From: Nitrospirales bacterium
GTDB taxonomy: Bacteria > Nitrospirota > Nitrospiria > Nitrospirales > UBA8639
NCBI GenBank assembly: GCA_021604105.1
Contig: BQIW01000015.1
Coordinates: forward strand, 1 to 61,630
Direction of reading: 5' to 3'
DNA length: 61,630 bases
The position numbers and the translations under genes are program-made. Positions 3,437 to 60,761 of the stretch are shown one piece after another (within the stretch, counting starts at the first letter, position 1; every line of letters starts with the position of its first letter). The notes beneath the pieces were generated by a model. It saw only the letters and a list, made by a program, of their open reading frames with translations, was not told where the DNA came from and did no database searches.

Positions 3437-4164
3437 TGGGGGTCGACCTTAGAACTTTCGGGTAAGGGTTCCAGTTGCCTTTTCCTCCTTTGAGGTAACC
3501 CTTGAATTAACAATGTTATTTCTCCTTTAATCGATTTGTTTTTTACCTGTTGAATCACTTCTTCGATTTCTCCCCGTAGAATTTCTTCGTTGAGTTTTGT
3601 CAGTTCTCGTGTCAGGACAATGTGTCTGTTTCCCATGACGGTCGTGATGACTTGTAATGTTTTGAGAATCCGATGCTGGGTTTCAAAGACAACAATGGTA
3701 CCCTTTTCTTCTTTAATATTTTGGAAAAATTTTTCCCTGGCTCCTGGTTTTCTTGGCACAAATCCCTCAAAGATAAATCGATCCGTTTCCAAACCTGATA
3801 CGCATAATGCCGTCAGAACTGAAGATGGTCCTGGAATAGGGATAAGTGGAATATTAGACTTGATCGCCTGTCGAACCAGGTAAAACCCCGGATCAGAAAT
3901 AAGAGGGGTCCCCGCATCGCAAACCAAGGCAACGGAACTTCCTTCCTGGAGCCGATGGAGGAGAATGTCGGTTTTCTCCTCCTTGTTGAAATCGTGATAA
4001 CTGGTGAGTGGTGTGCCGATGTGATAATAGGTGCAGAGTTTTTGTGTGCGACGTGTGTCCTCAGCTGCAATAATGGCTACCTCTTGGAGAATGCGGATAG
4101 CCCGGAATGTCATATCTTCCAGATTTCCGATAGGCGTGCTGACAATATAGAGCGTTCCGGCCAT
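3418..4164 (-). CDS. rsmI: 16S rRNA (cytidine-1402-2'-O)-methyltransferase
   Basis: 248 residues, slightly short for RsmI. It uses SAM to methylate the 2'-OH of C1402 in the ribosomal P site. Seen: N-terminal GTLYIVSTPIGNLEDMTFRA, then AAEDTRRTQKL, TSYHDFNKEEK, LVCDAGTPLISDPG and IPGPSSVLTALCVSG, all landmarks of the tetrapyrrole-methylase-fold RsmI family. The C-terminal helical domain is short. Its 3' end runs into the end of the opposing TusA-like gene, so neither has room for its own terminator there. Confidence 0.96.
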   Translation of the reverse strand: MAGTLYIVSTPIGNLEDMTFRAIRILQEVAIIAAEDTRRTQKLCTYYHIGTPLTSYHDFNKEEKTDILLHRLQEGSSVALVCDAGTPLISDPGFYLVRQAIKSNIPLIPIPGPSSVLTALCVSGLETDRFIFEGFVPRKPGAREKFFQNIKEEKGTIVVFETQHRILKTLQVITTVMGNRHIVLTRELTKLNEEILRGEIEEVIQQVKNKSIKGEITLLIQGLPQRRKRQLEPLPESSKVDPHHTSTF

Positions 4165-4295
4165 GGTCTATTAAGGAAAAATGATATAGGGCAAGGTTGG
4201 AGATGGTACTGCGTGAGCCTGCTATTGTCCAGGACGATCCAGCCGTATTCGCCTGGTTTCGCAATGATGAGATATGAACGATGGGTGACATCCAT

Positions 4296-4500
4296 CGGTT
4301 GAAATGTCAAGTGGCTCTGGTTAGGGAGGTGGCGTGGGTATTGGATGTGCCATTGCCCATGGGATAGTGGGTCAATATGCGGAAGTCGCTATTTGTGGGA
4401 GACGTGTGGAAGAATGAGAGCGGTGGACCACATTCAGACTGGCGGAGATGTGCTGTCGATTCCATGTGATGTGACTCACTGGGTCGATGTCGTCCTGTAT
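4296..4500 (+). pseudogene. remnant of a short-chain dehydrogenase/reductase gene
   Basis: Translating three frames in turn gives the start of a classical SDR: QVALV, then in a second frame GGGVGIGCAIAHGIVGQYAE followed by VAICGRRVEE and a stop, then in a third frame GGDVLSIPCDVTHWVDV. This is the order of the SDR glycine-rich NAD(P) loop, the strand ending in GR, and the D-V-T cofactor motif. At least two frameshifts and a stop break it, and nothing after the first 70 or so residues survives. Family recognition is from motif order only. Confidence 0.65.
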
Positions 4501-4641
4501 TTATGCTCTCATGCGGCTTGTACTAACTAGGCACCCCTTAAATGTTTGTAGTGGAACTACCGCAGGCATTGCATAAGTGGATATGCGGTGTGACTTTCTT
4601 ATTTTTCTTAAACAAGAAATGCTGGTAACCTGTTGATTTTC

Positions 4642-4670: not shown

Positions 4671-4711
4671 CGATATGGCTCTTTGTGCATGTGTTTTTAC
4701 TAGGTTGTTCA

Positions 4712-5521
4712 ATGCCTGAATTACTGTCATATCTCACCATGGGCTTATATTTTGGAGGTACGCTCCTTTTTCTTCTTTATCTCTGGCACCGTTCTGATGT
4801 CATCTCAAAAATTTCTCTTGTGACCACAGGGTTGGGGTTCATTTCTCATACCTCGGGACTCATTATGGCCATGGTATCGATGGGCCATGTCCCTATTATG
4901 ACCTTTAAGGACGCGATGTCCTTTTTTGCCTGGGGGTTAGTATTGGTTTTTTTGGTTGTTGCCATGAAACGGGGCTTGGAGGTGTTGGGCGCCTTTATCC
5001 TTCCACTGGCCTTTCTGTCTCTCGTTTCGGCAACCCTGGCGCCTCAATCAGCCGATACTCTTGCCCCGGTCTTTCAGACGGTATGGGTGCATGTGACCCT
5101 GAGTATCTTAGGTACCATTGGATTTGCCGTGGCTTTCGTGGCCGGATTGATGTATGTGATGCAAGAGCGCCTCTTAAAATCCAAACAATTTAATGTGTTA
5201 TCTTTCAAGCTCCCACCACTGGACTTTTTAGATTCTCTCAATCAACGGTCTATCCTTTTTGGGTTTCCCCTATTGACCTTGGGAATTCTGACAGGGGCTG
5301 TTTCAGCCCAATTAACGATTGGATCGTATTTGAGCTGGAATTCTGAGCAAATATGGGCGTTAATTACCTGGTTCTTTTATTTCGCGGTCCTGATGGGAAG
5401 GGTGACGGCCGGATGGAGGGCGAAAAAAGCCGCGTATCTAACCATTGTGGGGTTTGCCGGAGTAATTTTGACTTTTGTCGGCATCCTTATCAAAAGTCCT
5501 CAACCGATGTCGCCGTTATGA
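4712..5521 (+). CDS. hemX: HemX/CcsA-type cytochrome c assembly membrane protein
   Basis: About 269 residues with eight predicted membrane helices. It resembles the HemX/CcsA/CcmC family, whose members handle haem at the membrane or stabilise glutamyl-tRNA reductase. Seen: MPELLSYLTMGLYFGGTLLF at the start, a Trp-rich stretch WNSEQIWALITWFFY near residue 215, and alternating hydrophobic helices throughout. An upstream in-frame ATG (4685) exists but sits almost on the predicted transcription start. The stop overlaps the hemA start (ATGA), so the two are translationally coupled. This position just before hemA is typical for hemX. Whether it acts in cytochrome c maturation or in HemA control cannot be told from sequence. 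Confidence 0.85.
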   Translation: MPELLSYLTMGLYFGGTLLFLLYLWHRSDVISKISLVTTGLGFISHTSGLIMAMVSMGHVPIMTFKDAMSFFAWGLVLVFLVVAMKRGLEVLGAFILPLAFLSLVSATLAPQSADTLAPVFQTVWVHVTLSILGTIGFAVAFVAGLMYVMQERLLKSKQFNVLSFKLPPLDFLDSLNQRSILFGFPLLTLGILTGAVSAQLTIGSYLSWNSEQIWALITWFFYFAVLMGRVTAGWRAKKAAYLTIVGFAGVILTFVGILIKSPQPMSPL

Positions 5522-6876
5522 ATATTATCGTTTTAGGCCTCAATCATCGGACGGCTTCCGTTGAGCTTCGGGAATTGCTGGCCATCCAGGATAGCCGGAT
5601 GGGAGAAGCGTTGGGTCGGCTCATGGCGTACTCCGGTATTAAAGAGGCCATGTATCTGGGGACTTGCAACCGTGTTGAAGTGTATGCGGTCGTAGAAAAG
5701 GGAGAATGGGGGTTTCGTCAATTGGAAGATTTTTTGGTCTCAACCCATTTCTCCTTGTCCACGGAGGATTTACTCCCTCACCTGTATCGATATAGTGATG
5801 ATGAAGCCATCGCGCATTTATTTCGGGTATCGGCTAGTTTAGATTCCATGGTCGTGGGAGAGCCCCAGGTCCTAGGGCAGGTAAAGGAAGCATACGATCT
5901 GGCTCTGACCCATCGTTCGTCCGGGGTCATTCTGAATAAGGTCGTCAAAAAAGCGATTTCGGTAGGGAAAAGTGTCCGTACGAACACCCGAATAGGGGAA
6001 TATGCGGTTTCGGTCAGCTATGCCGCTGTGGAATTAGCCAAAAAAGTTTTTTCGAATCTGAAACAACGAGTTGTGTTGTTAGTGGGTGCAGGGGAGATGG
6101 GAAAGTTGGCTGCGCAACACCTGGTGAATCAGGGCGTGAAGGAAGTCCTAATTACGAATCGAAATCATCATCGTGCTTTCATGCTGGCCGAACGCTTTCA
6201 TGGGCAGGCGGTTCCCTATGAACAGCTTCGAAGCACGCTACCCAAGGTGGATATTGTGATTTGCGCCACGGGTGCCCCCCACTATGTCATTACCAAGGAT
6301 GATATTGAAATGGCGGTGTATCATCGAATGAACCGCCCCATGTTTTTGATTGATATTACAGTGCCTCGAAATATTGATCCGGCGGTTAAAGATGTTGATA
6401 ACGCCTATGTGTTTGATATTGACGATCTCAAGGCCCATGTGGGCCATAACCAGGAAGAACGATTGAAAGAAGCTGAAACCGCGGAGCACATGGTCAAGGA
6501 AGAAGTGGGAAGTATGGTTGCCTGGGTTCGCGGACTGGAAGCAACGCCTACCATTGTAGCCTTGAGAAAAAAAGCGGAAGAGATCAAACAAGGCGAGTTG
6601 GAGAAAGTCTTCGGGCGGTTGGGGGAATTGTCGTCGAAGGAACGATCTGCCATAGAAGGCCTGGCGTCCGCGATTGTGAATAAATTACTCCATGGTCCGG
6701 TCGTGACCCTAAAATCGGAGGCACAATCTCAAAATGGATTTGCGTTCATTGAAGCTGCCCGCCGGTTCTTTGAACTCCGGGAACGGGAGATTCACTCCGG
6801 AGAGATACCACTCCTGGAAGATGAGACAGGTGATGGCGTTCGCGAGGAGCGCCTGCCACAGAAGGATGGCGTATGA
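5518..6876 (+). CDS. hemA: glutamyl-tRNA reductase
   Basis: 452 residues. It reduces glutamyl-tRNA(Glu) with NADPH to glutamate-1-semialdehyde, the first committed step of C5-pathway haem synthesis. The start MNIIVLGLNHRTASVELREL is family-typical; the longer frame upstream is the hemX coding region read in another phase. Seen: catalytic-Cys motif GTCNRVEVYA near residue 50, FRVSASLDSMVVGEPQVLGQ, the NADPH loop VGAGEMGKLAAQHL near 195, and a C-terminal dimerisation helix. It overlaps hemX and hemC by four bases each. Confidence 0.98.
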   Translation: MNIIVLGLNHRTASVELRELLAIQDSRMGEALGRLMAYSGIKEAMYLGTCNRVEVYAVVEKGEWGFRQLEDFLVSTHFSLSTEDLLPHLYRYSDDEAIAHLFRVSASLDSMVVGEPQVLGQVKEAYDLALTHRSSGVILNKVVKKAISVGKSVRTNTRIGEYAVSVSYAAVELAKKVFSNLKQRVVLLVGAGEMGKLAAQHLVNQGVKEVLITNRNHHRAFMLAERFHGQAVPYEQLRSTLPKVDIVICATGAPHYVITKDDIEMAVYHRMNRPMFLIDITVPRNIDPAVKDVDNAYVFDIDDLKAHVGHNQEERLKEAETAEHMVKEEVGSMVAWVRGLEATPTIVALRKKAEEIKQGELEKVFGRLGELSSKERSAIEGLASAIVNKLLHGPVVTLKSEAQSQNGFAFIEAARRFFELREREIHSGEIPLLEDETGDGVREERLPQKDGV

Positions 6877-7823
6877 ATCAAGGGAATAGTCAAGCACGCT
6901 CTACCCTCATTGTGGGAACACGAGGAAGCCAATTGGCGATATGGCAAGCCGAATGGGTGCAAGGACAGCTCAAAGCCCTTGCTCCGGATATTTCCGTCAT
7001 TCTGAAGCGTATTCAAACCAGCGGAGATAAGATTCAAGATGTGCCTTTGGCTAAAATTGGAGGAAAAGGCCTGTTTGTCAAAGAAATCGAAGAAGCGCTG
7101 CTCCGACGAGATATTGATCTGGCCGTGCATAGCATGAAAGACGTACCGTCAGAATTGCCTGAAGGGCTGGGAATTGTTTGTGTTCCCGAGCGGGAGGATC
7201 CCAGGGATGCGTTGATTGCCCGTGAAGGCCATACCTTGGCGACATTGCCGATCGGTGCACGAGTCGGAACCAGTAGTTTGCGAAGACAGGCGCAGTTGTT
7301 ACATGCTCGTCCGGATCTTGAGATTGCGATGTTGCGTGGGAATGTTGATACACGACTTCGCAAGGTTCGCGAGGGTCAGTATGATGCCATTATTCTGGCC
7401 GCCTCCGGGCTCAAGCGCTTAGGATGGGATCAGGAAGTGACGGAGTATTTGCCCGTGGATGTGAGTCTGCCGGCAATTGGGCAAGGTTCGTTGGGTCTTG
7501 AAGGACGGAAAGATGATTCCTGGATTCGAGATCTGGTGGCTCAGTTTGAACATCGGCCAACTCGGATTGCGGTCACTGCCGAACGGGCGTTGCTTGCAGG
7601 GTTGGAAGGCGGATGCCAGGTTCCTATTGCAGGGTATGCGACTCTCCAAGGGGACACCCTGACTCTGGAGGGGTTAGTCACGAGCCTTGATGGGAAACGA
7701 TATATCCGTCAAGTGGTAACGGGACCAGCGGGGGAAGCCGAATCAATTGGGACGCAGGTGGCTGAACAATTGTTGGACGGTGGGGCGCAACCCATTCTCC
7801 AGGAAATTTATGGGATGGCATGA
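6873..7823 (+). CDS. hemC: porphobilinogen deaminase (hydroxymethylbilane synthase)
   Basis: 316 residues. It joins four porphobilinogen units into hydroxymethylbilane. Seen: start of domain 1 IVGTRGSQLAIWQA, LAVHSMKDVPSELPEGL, RVGTSSLRRQAQLLHARPDL, and the cysteine that anchors the dipyrromethane cofactor in GLEGGCQVPIAGYA near residue 246. The start overlaps the hemA stop (ATGA) and its own stop overlaps the start of the next gene in the same way. The enzymes of one pathway are thus translationally chained. Confidence 0.98.
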   Translation: MNQGNSQARSTLIVGTRGSQLAIWQAEWVQGQLKALAPDISVILKRIQTSGDKIQDVPLAKIGGKGLFVKEIEEALLRRDIDLAVHSMKDVPSELPEGLGIVCVPEREDPRDALIAREGHTLATLPIGARVGTSSLRRQAQLLHARPDLEIAMLRGNVDTRLRKVREGQYDAIILAASGLKRLGWDQEVTEYLPVDVSLPAIGQGSLGLEGRKDDSWIRDLVAQFEHRPTRIAVTAERALLAGLEGGCQVPIAGYATLQGDTLTLEGLVTSLDGKRYIRQVVTGPAGEAESIGTQVAEQLLDGGAQPILQEIYGMA

Positions 7824-55920: not shown

Positions 55921-56155
55921 GACCTCCTCCTTGTTCTATGTTTACCTGATTAGGACAACGGGAATGCCCAACAAGGGCTATATTTCGTTTACAATGACAA
56001 TATATCCGGTGGGAGAAACGGGAGGGTCAGGCTTGTCGAAGATTTTAGAATATAAAGATTCAAAACATCTCAGAATGAGACGAGGGCGGCACCTTAATAT
56101 ACCGACCATTCAGCTCTACTCAGGTATTGTCCTTCCTTATCAAAGGAGTGCTAAT

Positions 56156-56191
56156 ATGAGGTTTCTTCGAGTTGTCCTTAACCGGAGCTGA
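56156..56191 (+). CDS. 11-residue leader peptide
   Basis: AAAGGAG (56142-56148) is followed seven bases later by an ATG that reads MRFLRVVLNRS and stops three nucleotides before the next gene's ATG. The last codons contain the GGAG that serves the downstream gene. The layout fits translational coupling of the exported protein to this leader. Confidence 0.4.
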   Translation: MRFLRVVLNRS

Positions 56192-56193
56192 AG

Positions 56194-56568
56194 ATGAAGC
56201 TGTTCTCTTCTCTCGCCATCATCACCCTTGCGGTCGTCTTTGCTACCCCGATGTTCGCCGAACCTTATCCGCACTCCTGTGAGATCGTGTTAGACAGGGT
56301 TGAAGCAGCCCGGAAAGCGCTCCTTCCATTTCGTCGGACCATGGAACTGTTAAAAGCCCATCAATCCGGCGCATATGGTGAAGCGGAGGCCTGCGTGACC
56401 GGGAGTCGGCATGGTGGGGATACATCCGTCCATTGTACTCAGTCGCGATGGCACAGCCCGAAACCAGATACATTTGCCTTGGTGGCCATAGACCAATACA
56501 GGCAGAAGAGAAAAACATTTGAAGAATTGTTTCAACAAGCCAGGCAGATCTGTCTGCATGAGCCATAA
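56194..56568 (+). CDS. small exported cysteine-containing protein, first of a tandem pair
   Basis: 124 residues. A Sec signal peptide (LFSSLAIITLAVVFATPMFA) is followed by EPYPHSCEIVLDRVEAARKA. Four cysteines follow the signal (near 29, 67, 81 and 120), in positions matching those of the next gene, so two disulfides in the periplasm are likely. The mature chain is mostly helical. Family not recognised. The next gene is a clear paralogue. Confidence 0.75.
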   Translation: MKLFSSLAIITLAVVFATPMFAEPYPHSCEIVLDRVEAARKALLPFRRTMELLKAHQSGAYGEAEACVTGSRHGGDTSVHCTQSRWHSPKPDTFALVAIDQYRQKRKTFEELFQQARQICLHEP

Positions 56569-56612
56569 CCACACACGAGAGTCGTGAACGTGTTATCGGG
56601 AATCAAACTGTG

Positions 56613-56993
56613 ATGGTCAAATCTTTGTATGGCATCGGTCTTCCTCTTCTGCTTCTCCTCACTTGGACGTGTCCTGCCGGCAGCGAACCGTATTCTCCTT
56701 CCTGTGGTCACGCAGTAGAAAAAGTGATTAAGGATCGAAAGAATCTCAGTGCCTATCAACGGACTTTACAATCAGCCAGGAGCCGGGAGCGTGTAGCCTA
56801 TGCAGACTTAGCGGTATGTGCACGAGGTGGAATCTTTAGTGTGGGACGAGCCGTGGCATGCAATCAGGCCTCCTGGAAGGCCCCGGTACGAACGAAGGAA
56901 TTAATTGAAGCCGAGGAAGACTATCGACAGGCAAGAAATGAATTTGAGAAGTCCTTTGAATACGCTGAGAACTCCTGCCTCTTATCCCCCTAA
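56613..56993 (+). CDS. small exported cysteine-containing protein, second of a tandem pair
   Basis: 126 residues from the ATG at 56613 (a GTG one codon upstream is possible). Signal peptide LYGIGLPLLLLLTWTCPAGS, then EPYSPSCGHAVEKVIKDRKN, parallel to the EPYPHSC start of the upstream gene. The cysteine spacing, a basic-plus-helix pattern and a QARNEFEKSFEYAENSC ending (compare QKRKTFEELFQQARQIC) show a tandem duplication with strong divergence. Role unknown; 45 nt separate the two genes. Confidence 0.75.
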   Translation: MVKSLYGIGLPLLLLLTWTCPAGSEPYSPSCGHAVEKVIKDRKNLSAYQRTLQSARSRERVAYADLAVCARGGIFSVGRAVACNQASWKAPVRTKELIEAEEDYRQARNEFEKSFEYAENSCLLSP

Positions 56994-57260
56994 TTTCCTA
57001 CTGGTCTCTCCTTCTTTTCTTCTTAACTTTGTAGAACAATCACGCTGATCGGCATTTTCCCCTACCGGAATTGCGCTGAACTGTCTTTGATGTGTATGCG
57101 CAACGTGTGTTCCACACAGGAGATTCCGTCGGCATGCCCGACTGATGCGGGCCTGACTTCGCCGTAAGCCGAGGGCGATGGCTCGTAGACTGTCCTTGTC
57201 CTTCATGAGATACGAATGCGTTTTTTGTGATCGAAATGCCGACAACAAATTTCCATTCAT
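56982..57260 (-). pseudogene. fragment of an IS30-family transposase
   Basis: On the minus strand the frame reads DSLRAIALGLRRSQARISRA followed by CRRN. This matches the helix-turn-helix of IS30 transposases (S-L-R-x-I-A-x-x-L-x-R-S-x-x-x-I-S-R-x-x-R-R-N). Only the DNA-binding start is present; the DDE catalytic core is missing, and no terminal inverted repeat is seen. An old remnant. The frame extends upstream to 57422 without family resemblance. Confidence 0.55.
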
Positions 57261-57432
57261 CACCTCATGAAGAATATGGATACGGCTGTGCACTGCGTGT
57301 GTGAATGTGTGTGATCGATATTTTGTTTCACTGATATTCTTGCTGTTTAGATAAAAAAATTGTAAGGTTTCAAAACTGCTACTGTTCATTTCAATGTTTT
57401 GGGCATGAACCAACCAACACAAGGAGGTATCT

Positions 57433-57741
57433 ATGGCTGTTCTAAGGAAGCGCCCGTCTGCAAAGGTAAAGTTGGCAGGACGTGGTTCTGCAAAATTAAG
57501 TCAGGCAGCGGGAACGATTAAGAAAAAATTACGGGGTGTCAAAATCATTGATTGGCATGAAGTCGGTCAACCGGGGCCCGATGTGATTTTTGGCACCGTC
57601 CAGGCGAACATCGGCAACTTCAGGTCTCATGTGGCCACGTTGACGAAATTGAAAGAGTTGCGCGATCTGAACATCCTCATTCATGGCCAACCACCTCGGC
57701 CTGAGGTTGTGCAAGTGAATTTCACGCTCGGACGAGGATAA
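57433..57741 (+). CDS. 102-residue cysteine-free protein encoded just before a radical SAM enzyme
   Basis: AAGGAGGT stands six bases before the ATG. The N-terminal third is strongly basic (MAVLRKRPSAKVKLAGRGSA, then IKKKLRG). The rest has IIDWHEVGQPGPDVIFGTVQ, NIGNFRSHVATLTKLKELRD and the C-terminal end VVQVNFTLGRG. There is no cysteine and no signal peptide. The next gene begins seven bases after its stop, so both are one unit. It could be a substrate peptide for the radical SAM enzyme or a partner/chaperone. I do not recognise it, and it does not resemble PqqD. Confidence 0.75.
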   Translation: MAVLRKRPSAKVKLAGRGSAKLSQAAGTIKKKLRGVKIIDWHEVGQPGPDVIFGTVQANIGNFRSHVATLTKLKELRDLNILIHGQPPRPEVVQVNFTLGRG

Positions 57742-57748
57742 ATGATTC

Positions 57749-58858
57749 ATGCAGGGACCGGCTGGTAAATATCCCGCATTGCAGGTTCACCCCGGCAGAC
57801 GCTGTAACCTGCAGTGTCTGCATTGTTATTCGGATTCCGGGCCGGACGTTTCCGAACAATTGGACATCGATACCCTACGGACAGTTGTGGTTGATGCCGC
57901 ACGTCTCGGGTACGCGGTCATGTCGGTGTCAGGCGGGGAACCCCTGTTGTATCCGGCGTTAGGGGAACTGCTTCGCGTGTCGCATGAGGCGGGATTGGCC
58001 ACCACGGTCACCACGAACGGCATGTTGCTGGATCAACGCCATCTGGACATCTTACAGGCTGATTGCGATCTCATCGCAATCAGCCTTGATGGCGTACCCG
58101 AATCGCATAACCTCATGCGAAATTCTCCACGGGCATTCGACGACATGTGCGCGAAGCTTGAGGGCTTGCGGGCATCCGGCATCCGATTCGGGTTCATCTT
58201 TACGCTCACGTTTCACAACGTCAACGAGTTGGAGTGGGTCGCAGAATTTGCGGTTGAACAAGGCGCTAACTTGTTGCAACTCCATCCGCTCGAACCCGTC
58301 GGCCGTGCCGAGTATACGCTTGACGATTCGTTGCCCGATGCCGAGGAAAATGCGGCAGCCGTGGTCGAAGCCGTCCGAATCCGGGAACAGTACAAAGATG
58401 TCATCGATGTCCAGATCGATCTCGCCACGATCCCCGCACTGCTCGAGCATCCGACTCGCGTCTTTGTGCGGGAAGCAGCGGTGTGTGGCGAGCAGACTGT
58501 TGCAGACATCATCGCCCCGTTAGTGATTGAAAGCAGTGGAGTGGTCTCACCTCTCCAGTATGGATTCCCGCGCGCCTGGTCCTGGGGCAATATCAAAAAT
58601 GCACGACTGCCGGAATTGGCGTCCTCGTGGTTGTCCCGCGATTACGCCGCGTTCCTCACCCTATGCCGGCTTGTGTACGAACAGGCGGTGACCAATGACG
58701 ATGAACCGGTCCTGAACTGGTATCAACATATCCAAGCCGCGGCTTCACGTTTTTCGCCCCTGCAGATCCGCGACATCATGAGCCAGTCAGGTGATACCGG
58801 GACTTGTGACCGTCTGCGGACGATGGCCTCAGATCCTGTCGGTCATGCCCCTCTTTGA
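57749..58858 (+). CDS. radical SAM enzyme with a degenerate C-terminal SPASM/twitch-like region
   Basis: 369 residues. The cluster motif is HPGRRCNLQCLHCYSDSGPD (CxxxCxxC near residue 18), followed by SVSGGEPLLYPALGEL (SAM-binding GGEP), VTTNGMLLDQRHLDIL and AISLDGVPESHNLMR. These are the steps of a MoaA/PqqE-like radical SAM fold. The C-terminal part has AVCGEQTVADIIAPLVIESS, then GVVSPLQYGFPRAWSWGNI, where SPASM proteins usually have a Cys after Pro. Later single cysteines (LTLCRL, GTCDRL) are too few for two full auxiliary clusters. The gene directly follows the 102-residue protein gene and is more G+C-rich than the surrounding DNA. Its substrate is unknown. Confidence 0.92.
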   Translation: MQGPAGKYPALQVHPGRRCNLQCLHCYSDSGPDVSEQLDIDTLRTVVVDAARLGYAVMSVSGGEPLLYPALGELLRVSHEAGLATTVTTNGMLLDQRHLDILQADCDLIAISLDGVPESHNLMRNSPRAFDDMCAKLEGLRASGIRFGFIFTLTFHNVNELEWVAEFAVEQGANLLQLHPLEPVGRAEYTLDDSLPDAEENAAAVVEAVRIREQYKDVIDVQIDLATIPALLEHPTRVFVREAAVCGEQTVADIIAPLVIESSGVVSPLQYGFPRAWSWGNIKNARLPELASSWLSRDYAAFLTLCRLVYEQAVTNDDEPVLNWYQHIQAAASRFSPLQIRDIMSQSGDTGTCDRLRTMASDPVGHAPL

Positions 58859-59350
58859 AGGGCGCACCTGATTCGACGACATCCCGCCACTCTCGGGTCA
58901 TTGCTTCATTCTGCCTCAAAACACCGTCAATATCTGACGAATCCATTCCGAAGGATCACAGTATGTCCGGCCTGCCTGAAAAGCTTTTTGCCCAAAATGA
59001 GAGGCCAATTCTTGCCAGCACCATCTGCCAATTCCGTCTGCTTTAACTGGCGACTCATCGGTCGCTACCTACACGCCCAAATCCTCGGTAGACGAGCTCC
59101 CGGAGAATTCAAGCCCAGCGGCTAAATGATCAAGTTTAGGGTCGGCAATGTCGTCTCGGTGGAGTTTCCCTTCTCGACCTGCAGACCCGTAAACGCCGTC
59201 GAGAGTAGGTTTGTCGGCCCCGCTGCTCCCGCGTCCACCCTTGAGCTCTTCGCGAAGACGATGTGCTTTGCCCTTGTGCGCTATCCTTATCCTATGGCTC
59301 CTTTTTTAATCTTTTCTTGTATTTAAAAGCAAAATTTTTATAAATCCTTC
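58859..59350. other. intergenic stretch after the radical SAM gene
   Basis: About 490 bases without a supportable gene. Short plus-strand frames (58855-59046, 59126-59326) lack ribosome sites and family resemblance. The next clear element is the promoter of the toxin-antitoxin pair. Confidence 0.5.
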
Positions 59351-59380
59351 TTGACTGAATATTACATTAATGTAATTATA
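59351..59380 (+). promoter_or_regulatory. promoter and palindromic operator of the toxin-antitoxin pair
   Basis: TTGACT (59351-59356) is followed by a perfect 16-bp palindrome ATTACATTAATGTAAT (59361-59376) that overlaps the expected -10 region (TAATTA/ATTATA around 59373-59380). It lies 45 nt before the toxin start. A palindrome inside the promoter is what one expects for autorepression by the XRE antitoxin. Confidence 0.65.
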
Positions 59381-59421
59381 GCATTTGAGTAATATCATGG
59401 AAGTAGAGGGCGATTAGCCGG

Positions 59422-59784
59422 ATGAAAGAATGGACGATTATTTATCGATCGCGCTATGCCAATTGGTTTGGGAAATGCGGCGAGTCACTACAGGATGAAA
59501 TTCTCGCTCATTTGGAAGTGCTCAGGACAATGGGGCCGAACTTGGGTAGGCCGCGTGTGGATCATATAAAAGGCTCGAAGCATCAGAACATGAAGGAGCT
59601 GCGAATTCAGTTTAAAGGTGATCCGGTTCGGATACTGTTTGCTTTTGATCTTAAACGCCGAGCCGTTTTGCTTCTCGGTGGCGCCAAAACTGGTGACAAG
59701 GACTGGTATAGGCGGAATGTTCCCCTCGCGGACCAGGAGTTGACGTTACATTTAAATGAGTTAGAGAAGGAGAAAAAACGATGA
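59422..59784 (+). CDS. RelE/HigB-like toxin (Gp49 family)
   Basis: 120 residues. Relatives are ribosome-dependent mRNA endonucleases. Seen: TIIYRSRYANWFGKCGESLQ at the start, RPRVDHIKGSKHQNMKELRI in the middle, VRILFAFDLKRRAVLLLGGA and KTGDKDWYRRNVPLADQELT near the C terminus, the Gp49-like core with a conserved Arg/Lys-rich active face. Toxin precedes antitoxin, as in HigBA. Its stop overlaps the start of the antitoxin (ATGA). Confidence 0.92.
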   Translation: MKEWTIIYRSRYANWFGKCGESLQDEILAHLEVLRTMGPNLGRPRVDHIKGSKHQNMKELRIQFKGDPVRILFAFDLKRRAVLLLGGAKTGDKDWYRRNVPLADQELTLHLNELEKEKKR

Positions 59785-60122
59785 CTACGCACAAGGATTT
59801 TATGGCTTCCCTGCCGAAAAAGCGCCGCAAGGCTATTGAGAATCGTGCAGCGGAAATTTTTGCCGAAGAAATGACGCTTCAACAATTACGCAAAGCCCGT
59901 GATCGGTCACAGGAATCAACTGCCGAAGCTCTTGGCCTCAAACAGGCTGCCGTATCACGCCTGGAAAACCGCGATGACATGCGGATTTCCACGCTTCGGG
60001 AATATGTTCAGGCTTTGGGCGGAGAACTGGAGTTTTATGCTCGCTTCAAAGAGGGTGGCGACAAGACTCGATTTGTTCGGATCAGGAACAAAACCAAGGA
60101 TGAGCACCAAACCGTTTCTTGA
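59781..60122 (+). CDS. XRE-family antitoxin (HigA-like)
   Basis: 113 residues. A helix-turn-helix is seen in LQQLRKARDRSQESTAEALG and LKQAAVSRLENRDDMRISTL, near residues 35-75. The C-terminal strand GGELEFYARFKEGGDKTRFV should bind the toxin. It overlaps the toxin by four bases, which couples their synthesis, and likely binds the palindrome at 59361-59376 to repress both. Confidence 0.92.
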   Translation: MTTHKDFMASLPKKRRKAIENRAAEIFAEEMTLQQLRKARDRSQESTAEALGLKQAAVSRLENRDDMRISTLREYVQALGGELEFYARFKEGGDKTRFVRIRNKTKDEHQTVS

Positions 60123-60371
60123 TTTTTCAACCTACCCTGAATTGTAAAATAAAATGAGAAAGCTTCCTCGATGGGGATCGGCTGTGCAAAAAGATGCCCC
60201 TCTTTAAGGATTTCAAAATTTCTTCATTCTTTTGAACTCTTGAAAAAAACCCTTCCTGGATTTCTCTTTAATTCAGCTAAGGTACATGAATAGGCATGAG
60301 GGGGTTAGGTGTTCCCATCGTCCATCCGCCGATTCTGTCTGCTGTCAATTCCTTCAACCTCTTTCGACTGT

Positions 60372-60761
60372 TTATTTTCTCTCGATATTCACCTGGACAT
60401 TGGTACCATGAGAGGTCATGTCGAATACCGGTGAGAGTTTACTCAGGGCTTTGAGTTTCTCGATGTTGTCCGCATCGGTTTTGACCTTAAAGTTGACGCG
60501 GATATTCTCGAACCCGCTCCTGACCGTATTCGAGAGGCCAAGGAATCCCCTGATATCCAAATCGCCCTCAAGTTCCGATTCCAATGCCTCAATTACAATG
60601 CCCCGCACGGCCGCATGGTACACGAAGGTCGTCGTCAGGCATCCCGCCAAGGCATGTAAAGTTTTGAGGACATTCCTAACTCTTTCCAATTTCAAAGGGT
60701 ATGGCCTAAAAAAATTCCCACCCGTTTTCGGGCAAAGAGGTTTCAGAGGAAGTAGGGTCAT
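60372..60761 (-). CDS. OsmC-family protein with an abnormal, probably truncated N terminus
   Basis: 129 residues. From residue 36 on it is a typical OsmC/Ohr-like domain: HALAGCLTTTFVYHAAVRGI, VIEALESELEGDLDIRGFLG, and the ending SPVFDMTSHGTNVQVNIER. OsmC proteins are peroxiredoxin-like thiol enzymes, and the Cys in ALAGC is their resolving cysteine. The usual first 50-60 residues, with the first beta strands and the catalytic Cys or Arg region, are missing. They are replaced by a short, non-family sequence (LKPLCPKTGG, FFRPYPLKLE). Either the start is wrong or a frameshift removed the N terminus. Confidence 0.6.
   Translation of the reverse strand: MTLLPLKPLCPKTGGNFFRPYPLKLERVRNVLKTLHALAGCLTTTFVYHAAVRGIVIEALESELEGDLDIRGFLGLSNTVRSGFENIRVNFKVKTDADNIEKLKALSKLSPVFDMTSHGTNVQVNIERK

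Follow-up and report, generated by a model that had tools for sequence, protein, structure and literature searches.

Several radical SAM enzymes are encoded beside a small protein that is dedicated to them. In the case of the PqqA/PqqD/PqqE and MftA/MftB/MftC systems, whose product is conserved rather than variable, there are separate genes for a short precursor and for an RRE, together with processing enzymes, and the radical SAM enzymes have auxiliary clusters. In the spliceotide system PlpX/PlpY, the SPASM enzyme PlpX needs a small partner protein, and the precursor peptides are separate and carry NHLP or Nif11 leaders. QhpD, which has SPASM clusters, introduces Cys-based crosslinks into a small protein that is later the folded, cofactor-bearing gamma subunit of quinohemoprotein amine dehydrogenase. 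In haloarchaea, a gene of about 100 codons for an Htur_1727 rSAM-partnered candidate RiPP ends at the start of the radical-SAM-like gene for a TIGR04347 pseudo-SAM/SPASM protein (locus L083). It should be noted that known peptide-modifying radical SAM enzymes mostly contain SPASM or twitch clusters (PMC8326336).

Here we describe a two-gene cassette, present on a 61,630-nucleotide stretch of DNA from a Nitrospirales bacterium (the window), which by analogy may work like those radical SAM systems whose enzyme has a small protein of its own as target. A gene for a protein of 102 residues is followed, after seven bases, by a gene for an enzyme of 369 residues (Table 1). The ORFs, their coordinates and lengths, the gap and the perfect Shine-Dalgarno sequence are as an earlier note on this DNA had given them, and the larger gene does encode a radical SAM enzyme, as PF04055 (78.3 bits versus a cut-off of 29.5) is its sole Pfam assignment above cut-off. 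PqqE and MftC are neighbours of the MoaA/PqqE type, as holds for the cassette enzyme, and the small protein of the cassette, like the products of those systems, is conserved and not variable. The cassette differs from the Pqq and Mft systems in that it encodes one tandem-repeat protein of ~100 residues and lacks conserved auxiliary-cluster cysteines, and the MftC and PqqE sequences tested fall outside the clade of the cassette enzymes. It differs from the QhpD system in that the candidate substrate is Cys-free and no dehydrogenase genes are nearby. TIGR04347 is the second-best NCBIfam match of the enzyme, but a relationship with the Htur_1727 pair was rejected: the score is 94.7 bits versus a cut-off of 525, and the small protein matched no such model. 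In addition, an Htur_1727-family sequence (P0004) does not have the twin GxP motif described below, and the TIGR04347 sequence tested groups near NirJ, away from the cassette clade.

Table 1. Features of the cassette and its surroundings, in positions of the window
Feature	Position	Strand	Basis
Segment missing from congener G015, both flanks syntenic, 3.3 kb	57011..60311		blastn
Possible IS30-type transposase relic (HTH_38)	57123..57203	-	PF13936 E 0.0026, below curated cut-off
Promoter-like element CTTGCTGTTT-N11-TTGTAAGGT (TTGCTG, 17-bp spacer, TAAGGT)	57339..57368	+	pattern conservation
Perfect Shine-Dalgarno sequence AAGGAGGT of the small gene	57421..57428	+	sequence; AAGGAGG conserved in Nitrospirota homologues
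Small protein, 102 aa, candidate substrate or partner	57433..57741	+	ORF; dN/dS; strict co-occurrence; AF2
Repeat unit 1, residues 24-59: predicted helix, strand, GQP turn, strand	57502..57609	+	hhalign; secondary structure
GxP motif 1, G45-Q-P47	57565..57573	+	G45 in 10/10, P47 in 8-9/10 divergent homologues, depending on the set
Repeat unit 2, residues 60-100: predicted helix, strand, GQPP turn, strand	57610..57732	+	hhalign; secondary structure
GxP motif 2, G85-Q-P-P88	57685..57696	+	G85 in 10/10, P88 in 8-9/10 divergent homologues
Radical SAM enzyme, 369 aa, uncharacterised clade	57749..58858	+	PF04055 9.6e-22; tree; Cys census
CX3CX2C cluster-binding motif, C19, C23, C26	57803..57826	+	only invariant cysteines in 10 cassette enzymes

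Both genes have dN/dS values of ~0.02-0.13 in close species pairs, indicating strong purifying selection, and because the small ORF is conserved with such low values, we consider it to be a real gene. In intact Nitrospirota cassettes from either of the two genera, the small gene is preceded by the promoter-like element, and the other intergenic DNA is dissimilar. The pattern CTTGYYGTTT-N11-TTGTAWGGT occurs exactly once per locus in 47 of 99 loci; a scan with the sigma-70 consensus did not detect the element, and a search for RNA families gave none. The ribosome site of the enzyme gene is weak (AGGA only), and the asymmetry between the two sites would fit a higher output of small protein than of enzyme.

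The two genes are strictly linked. Of 396 Nitrospirota genomes, 15 carry the enzyme, and the small protein is found in 14 of these and in no others; the fifteenth enzyme gene (in genome G401) has decayed, containing stops and no start region, and its small gene has been lost. In a set of 98 related genomes, nine contain the small protein, and it is these nine that contain the enzyme. A small protein found mostly without the enzyme, the first of two outcomes that the earlier note had named as contrary to its claim, is therefore not what we observed, the enzyme being present in 14/14 and 9/9 genomes. Moreover, a small ORF lies directly upstream of all 23 intact cassette enzymes (15 from Nitrospirota and 8 from Acidobacteriota), at a distance of -1 to 17 nt where measured. 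Enzyme identity goes down to ~30% in the eight Acidobacteriota members, three of which were found with diverged queries. Like a RiPP precursor, which is encoded with and is specific to its modifying enzyme, the small protein is thus encoded with and specific to the cassette enzyme. These searches covered the Nitrospirota and part of the Acidobacteriota; a repeat search of the latter drew an overlapping set and gave no new genomes. Viral contigs and phages contained no relatives of the small protein and only generic radical SAM matches, and a match to the small protein on a Shinella plasmid (E 2e-2), with no radical SAM gene among the nearby ORFs, was taken as chance. No description of the pair was found in literature searches.

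Since the cassette is mobile and compact, it could be argued that the two genes are merely transferred and transcribed together, and that the small protein, as linked cargo or as a regulator, acts alone. We consider this very improbable: the linkage has been kept over two phyla, in different contexts and down to an enzyme identity of ~30%, and the decayed enzyme gene has lost its partner gene too. Because the two genes move between bacteria together, it is probable that the enzyme either modifies the small protein or is served by it.

The view that the cassette is acquired DNA, which the earlier note had proposed, is supported for the cassette as a unit by its sporadic distribution (2 of 169 genera among the Nitrospirota genomes), by contexts that differ between genera and by a sister genome that lacks the segment. 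Positions 56115-57010 of the window match 3634-4532 of locus L097, where the next match, that of 60312-60487, lies at 4696-4872; from this one genome, insertion and deletion are indistinguishable. Two other arguments for acquisition are weaker than they had been presented. The cassette is richer in G+C than the window, but only moderately (55.5% versus 49.4%), and the IS30 relic beside it amounts to a weak HTH_38 match, upstream and antisense.

No third gene is common to the Nitrospirota and Acidobacteriota contexts, and the cassette contexts share neither a protease nor a transporter gene. In many Nitrospira genomes, the copies (L020, L021, L023, L046, L051-L056) adjoin genes for eCIS_core (DUF4157), coiled-coil and 1105-aa DUF6519/beta-helix proteins, which suggests that an island related to injection systems is used as an insertion neighbourhood. 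As these genes are absent beside the copies of the other genus, L049/L050 and the Acidobacteriota copies, we rejected eCIS as part of the system and regard it as context only. Shortly downstream of the cassette in the window, at 59422-60122 (+), an ORF for a Gp49/HigB-like toxin (PF05973, 4.4e-19) immediately precedes one that resembles HTH_3 antitoxins; the two are probably a toxin-antitoxin pair and lie within the segment missing from G015. An OsmC-like ORF at 60312-60761 (-) appears truncated, retaining a 129-aa C-terminal part versus 185-187 aa in G011 and G019. At 56194-56993 (+) there are two adjacent short genes (124 and 127 aa) of similar design, with signal-peptide-like starts and no Pfam or NCBIfam match, which are also paired in G015, where they are related to each other (32%). 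Near an acidobacterial cassette (L065:8964-11495), we observed a subtilase gene whose product is lysine-rich at the N-terminus; the gene after it encodes a very acidic protein that has Cys/Tyr/Arg-rich repeats at its end and no Pfam match.

In a maximum-likelihood tree, all 19 distinct cassette enzymes form one clade (support 99/96), and the NirJ, MftC, PqqE, TIGR04347 and unassigned radical SAM sequences included all fall outside it. Among the sequences tested, the enzyme is thus not placed inside a family with known non-peptide substrates, the other outcome that would have spoken against the proposal. The L045 and L066 sequences have long branches, and hence their exact place within the clade is unsure. 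The sister of the clade (support 92/88) is a pair of enzymes, named group H, from the Mycolicibacterium sp. CBMA 213 plasmid pCBMA213_1 (L024:7563-9089) and from the acidobacterium G681 (L044, reverse complement 5633-7060). This sister lineage likewise has its own conserved upstream ORF, of 111-118 aa, whose product is unrelated to the cassette small protein, and it is possibly a second unrecognised enzyme-partner pair. The group H enzymes keep three extra cysteines, aligned to positions 236, 241 and 246 of the window enzyme, that are mostly missing in the cassette enzymes. Among 10 diverse cassette enzymes, C306 is the sole near-conserved cysteine besides those of the CX3CX2C motif (8/10), and the C-terminal ligands of SPASM/twitch auxiliary clusters were not found. 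Given that no cysteine outside the CX3CX2C motif is invariant, the enzymes do not have the usual SPASM/twitch ligand set, and the sequences suggest a single cluster and a C-terminal region that has degenerated.

The best NCBIfam scores of the enzyme are those of NirJ2 (105.6 bits), TIGR04347 and NirJ (93.4 bits), and with AhbC the top matches span 90-106 bits, all of them confined to the radical SAM core. AF2 gave a poor model of the enzyme (mean pLDDT 57.5), and its best PDB matches are SkfB, PqqE, DesII, SuiB and anSME; viperin and BlsE, which like DesII are small-molecule enzymes, are also among its structural neighbours. Because these matches are of both sorts, the model leaves undecided whether the substrate is a peptide or a small molecule. 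The structural matches and the profile matches, those to the pVip models mentioned below among them, may thus be taken to mean that a metabolite of heme-like, sugar or nucleotide type is made or altered by the enzyme, with the small protein acting as carrier, stabiliser or subunit. We regard such a role as improbable, since the scores are far below curated cut-offs, the enzymes form a separate clade, and no heme, nucleotide or sugar genes are linked across the cassette contexts. A heme enzyme of the NirJ/AhbC/AhbD type was rejected on the basis of scores of 86.6-105.6 bits versus cut-offs of 500-650, the position of the NirJ sequences outside the cassette clade and the lack of heme genes beside the cassettes. 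Prokaryotic viperin (pVip) was rejected too: NF038283 scores 61.5 versus 180 bits and matches with profile positions 7-122 of 281 only, and the PADLOC pVip model matches at 67.4 bits with positions 4-109 of 257, again the core only.

The small protein has no match in Pfam, PHROGs or PADLOC, and in NCBIfam it has only weak matches to NuoB models (best 7.8e-4, 19.1 bits versus a cut-off of 283). Homology to NuoB was rejected on this score and on the lack of cluster cysteines; NuoB has GCPPRPE, and the resemblance may be read as a short GQPPRPE string that is absent from distant homologues. Not all the features first noticed in this protein extend to the family. It is Cys-free in the window, but some homologues (L041, L042, L045) have Cys; distant homologues do not share its basic N-terminus; and its C-terminal end, which corresponds to the last predicted beta-strand, is conserved among close relatives only. 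In profile comparisons, groups A and B of small proteins are strongly linked (E 1.6e-9), the links B-D, B-E, C-E and C-F are moderate, and that of the L045 protein is weak except for an FPYGI motif and its position. Between most groups, the small protein is more diverged than the enzyme (20-38% versus 31-59% identity), the GxP turns excepted. When 10 diverse small proteins are compared, the majority with an identity of 16-30% to that of the window, just two residues are invariant, G45 and G85; in most of them each is followed by x-Pro, and the spacing between the two glycines is constant (40-43 residues). The number of GxP motifs per protein, compared with shuffles of the same protein, is not significant for single proteins, and the case for the twin motif therefore rests on its conserved position and not on GxP number.

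The two motifs belong to a tandem duplication: hhalign aligned half 1 with half 2 with a probability of 96 (E 2.7e-9, score 39), and the maximum score of 60 column-shuffled sets was 11. An AF2 model based on six sequences (mean pLDDT 67.9, core ~70-78) predicts an αββ-αββ arrangement in which the GxP turns lie between paired strands. In a fold search, PilO/GspL/GspM-type kinship was rejected, the best Z of 7.5 being within the range of common arrangements. RREs are defined by a winged helix of bbb-aaa order (PMC12710340). The predicted order, together with the lack of NCBIfam and Pfam RRE matches, agrees with the earlier view that the small protein has no PqqD-like fold. As their defining features were tested and not found, we do not file the pair under SPASM/twitch, RRE, NirJ/Ahb, viperin or TIGR04347.

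The main rival explanation is that the small protein is an adaptor, which as an obligate partner would attach to the enzyme and present or activate a substrate made elsewhere (a peptide, a protein or a metabolite), as PqqD does for PqqE and PlpY for PlpX. Small partners are common beside peptide-modifying radical SAM enzymes (PMC11002830; PMC12710340), and a conserved folded domain with low dN/dS and no obvious core peptide is also what an adaptor would look like. Nevertheless, the predicted fold does not have the order of RREs, neither the Nitrospirota nor the Acidobacteriota contexts contain a third conserved gene as a substrate, and the GxP turns alone are held while the rest of the small protein diverges. 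We therefore consider an adaptor role rather unlikely.

The reading that we put first, and to which we give about an even chance, is that the small protein is the dedicated substrate of the enzyme, modified close to its twin GxP turns and put to use without cleavage. Since the cassette has just two genes, which are strictly linked, and since no further gene is conserved with them, a substrate is the simplest reading. Consistent with it, the solitary enzyme has decayed, the small ORF is found upstream of every intact enzyme, and the ribosome-site asymmetry fits a substrate made above the enzyme. In profile and structure comparisons, the enzyme is nearest to peptide maturases (SkfB, PqqE) and other radical SAM enzymes. 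The GxP turns are the first place to look for a modification, as they are the only features kept, and a full-length product is favoured, given that neither a protease nor an exporter is linked to the pair and that the protein is predicted to be one folded domain. Against this reading, hairpin turns may keep their Gly and Pro for folding alone. RiPP precursors are organised into leader and core, with release by proteolysis and, as a rule, transport; the small proteins and their contexts show no evident leader/core split, no variable core and no protease. The cassette clade also appears to be without the SPASM/twitch clusters usual in peptide-modifying enzymes, and the poor enzyme model has DesII, viperin and BlsE among its nearest matches.

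If the small protein is the substrate, the cassette would be a self-contained, mobile two-gene modification system. The small protein would fold as helix-strand-strand twice and be more abundant than the enzyme that binds it; the enzyme would have a single [4Fe-4S] cluster, for SAM binding, and lack a conserved auxiliary cluster. The 5'-deoxyadenosyl radical made by the enzyme would then abstract a hydrogen at or near the two GxP turns, and the modified protein would function in the cell at its full length, for instance as a protein-borne cofactor or a specialised subunit. The more specific proposal that an enzyme without auxiliary clusters modifies the Gly residues or their neighbours in the GxP turns of the folded duplicate, the uncleaved product being a cofactor or subunit, is speculative, and we think it doubtful in this exact form.

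In summary, the earlier suggestion that the pair may represent a new radical SAM substrate or partner family is supported, as neither of the two contrary outcomes was found. The nitrite-oxidising Nitrospira and their relatives, as well as Acidobacteriota, carry a compact mobile family of an enzyme and a small protein that no model library used here recognises, and the twin GxP repeat allows a precise and testable guess as to which residues are modified. Should the small protein be the substrate, this would be peptide chemistry without the usual auxiliary clusters, carried out on a folded protein and not on a leader-core peptide; if its GxP turns are indeed what is modified, it would amount to the radical post-translational modification of a folded tandem-repeat protein.
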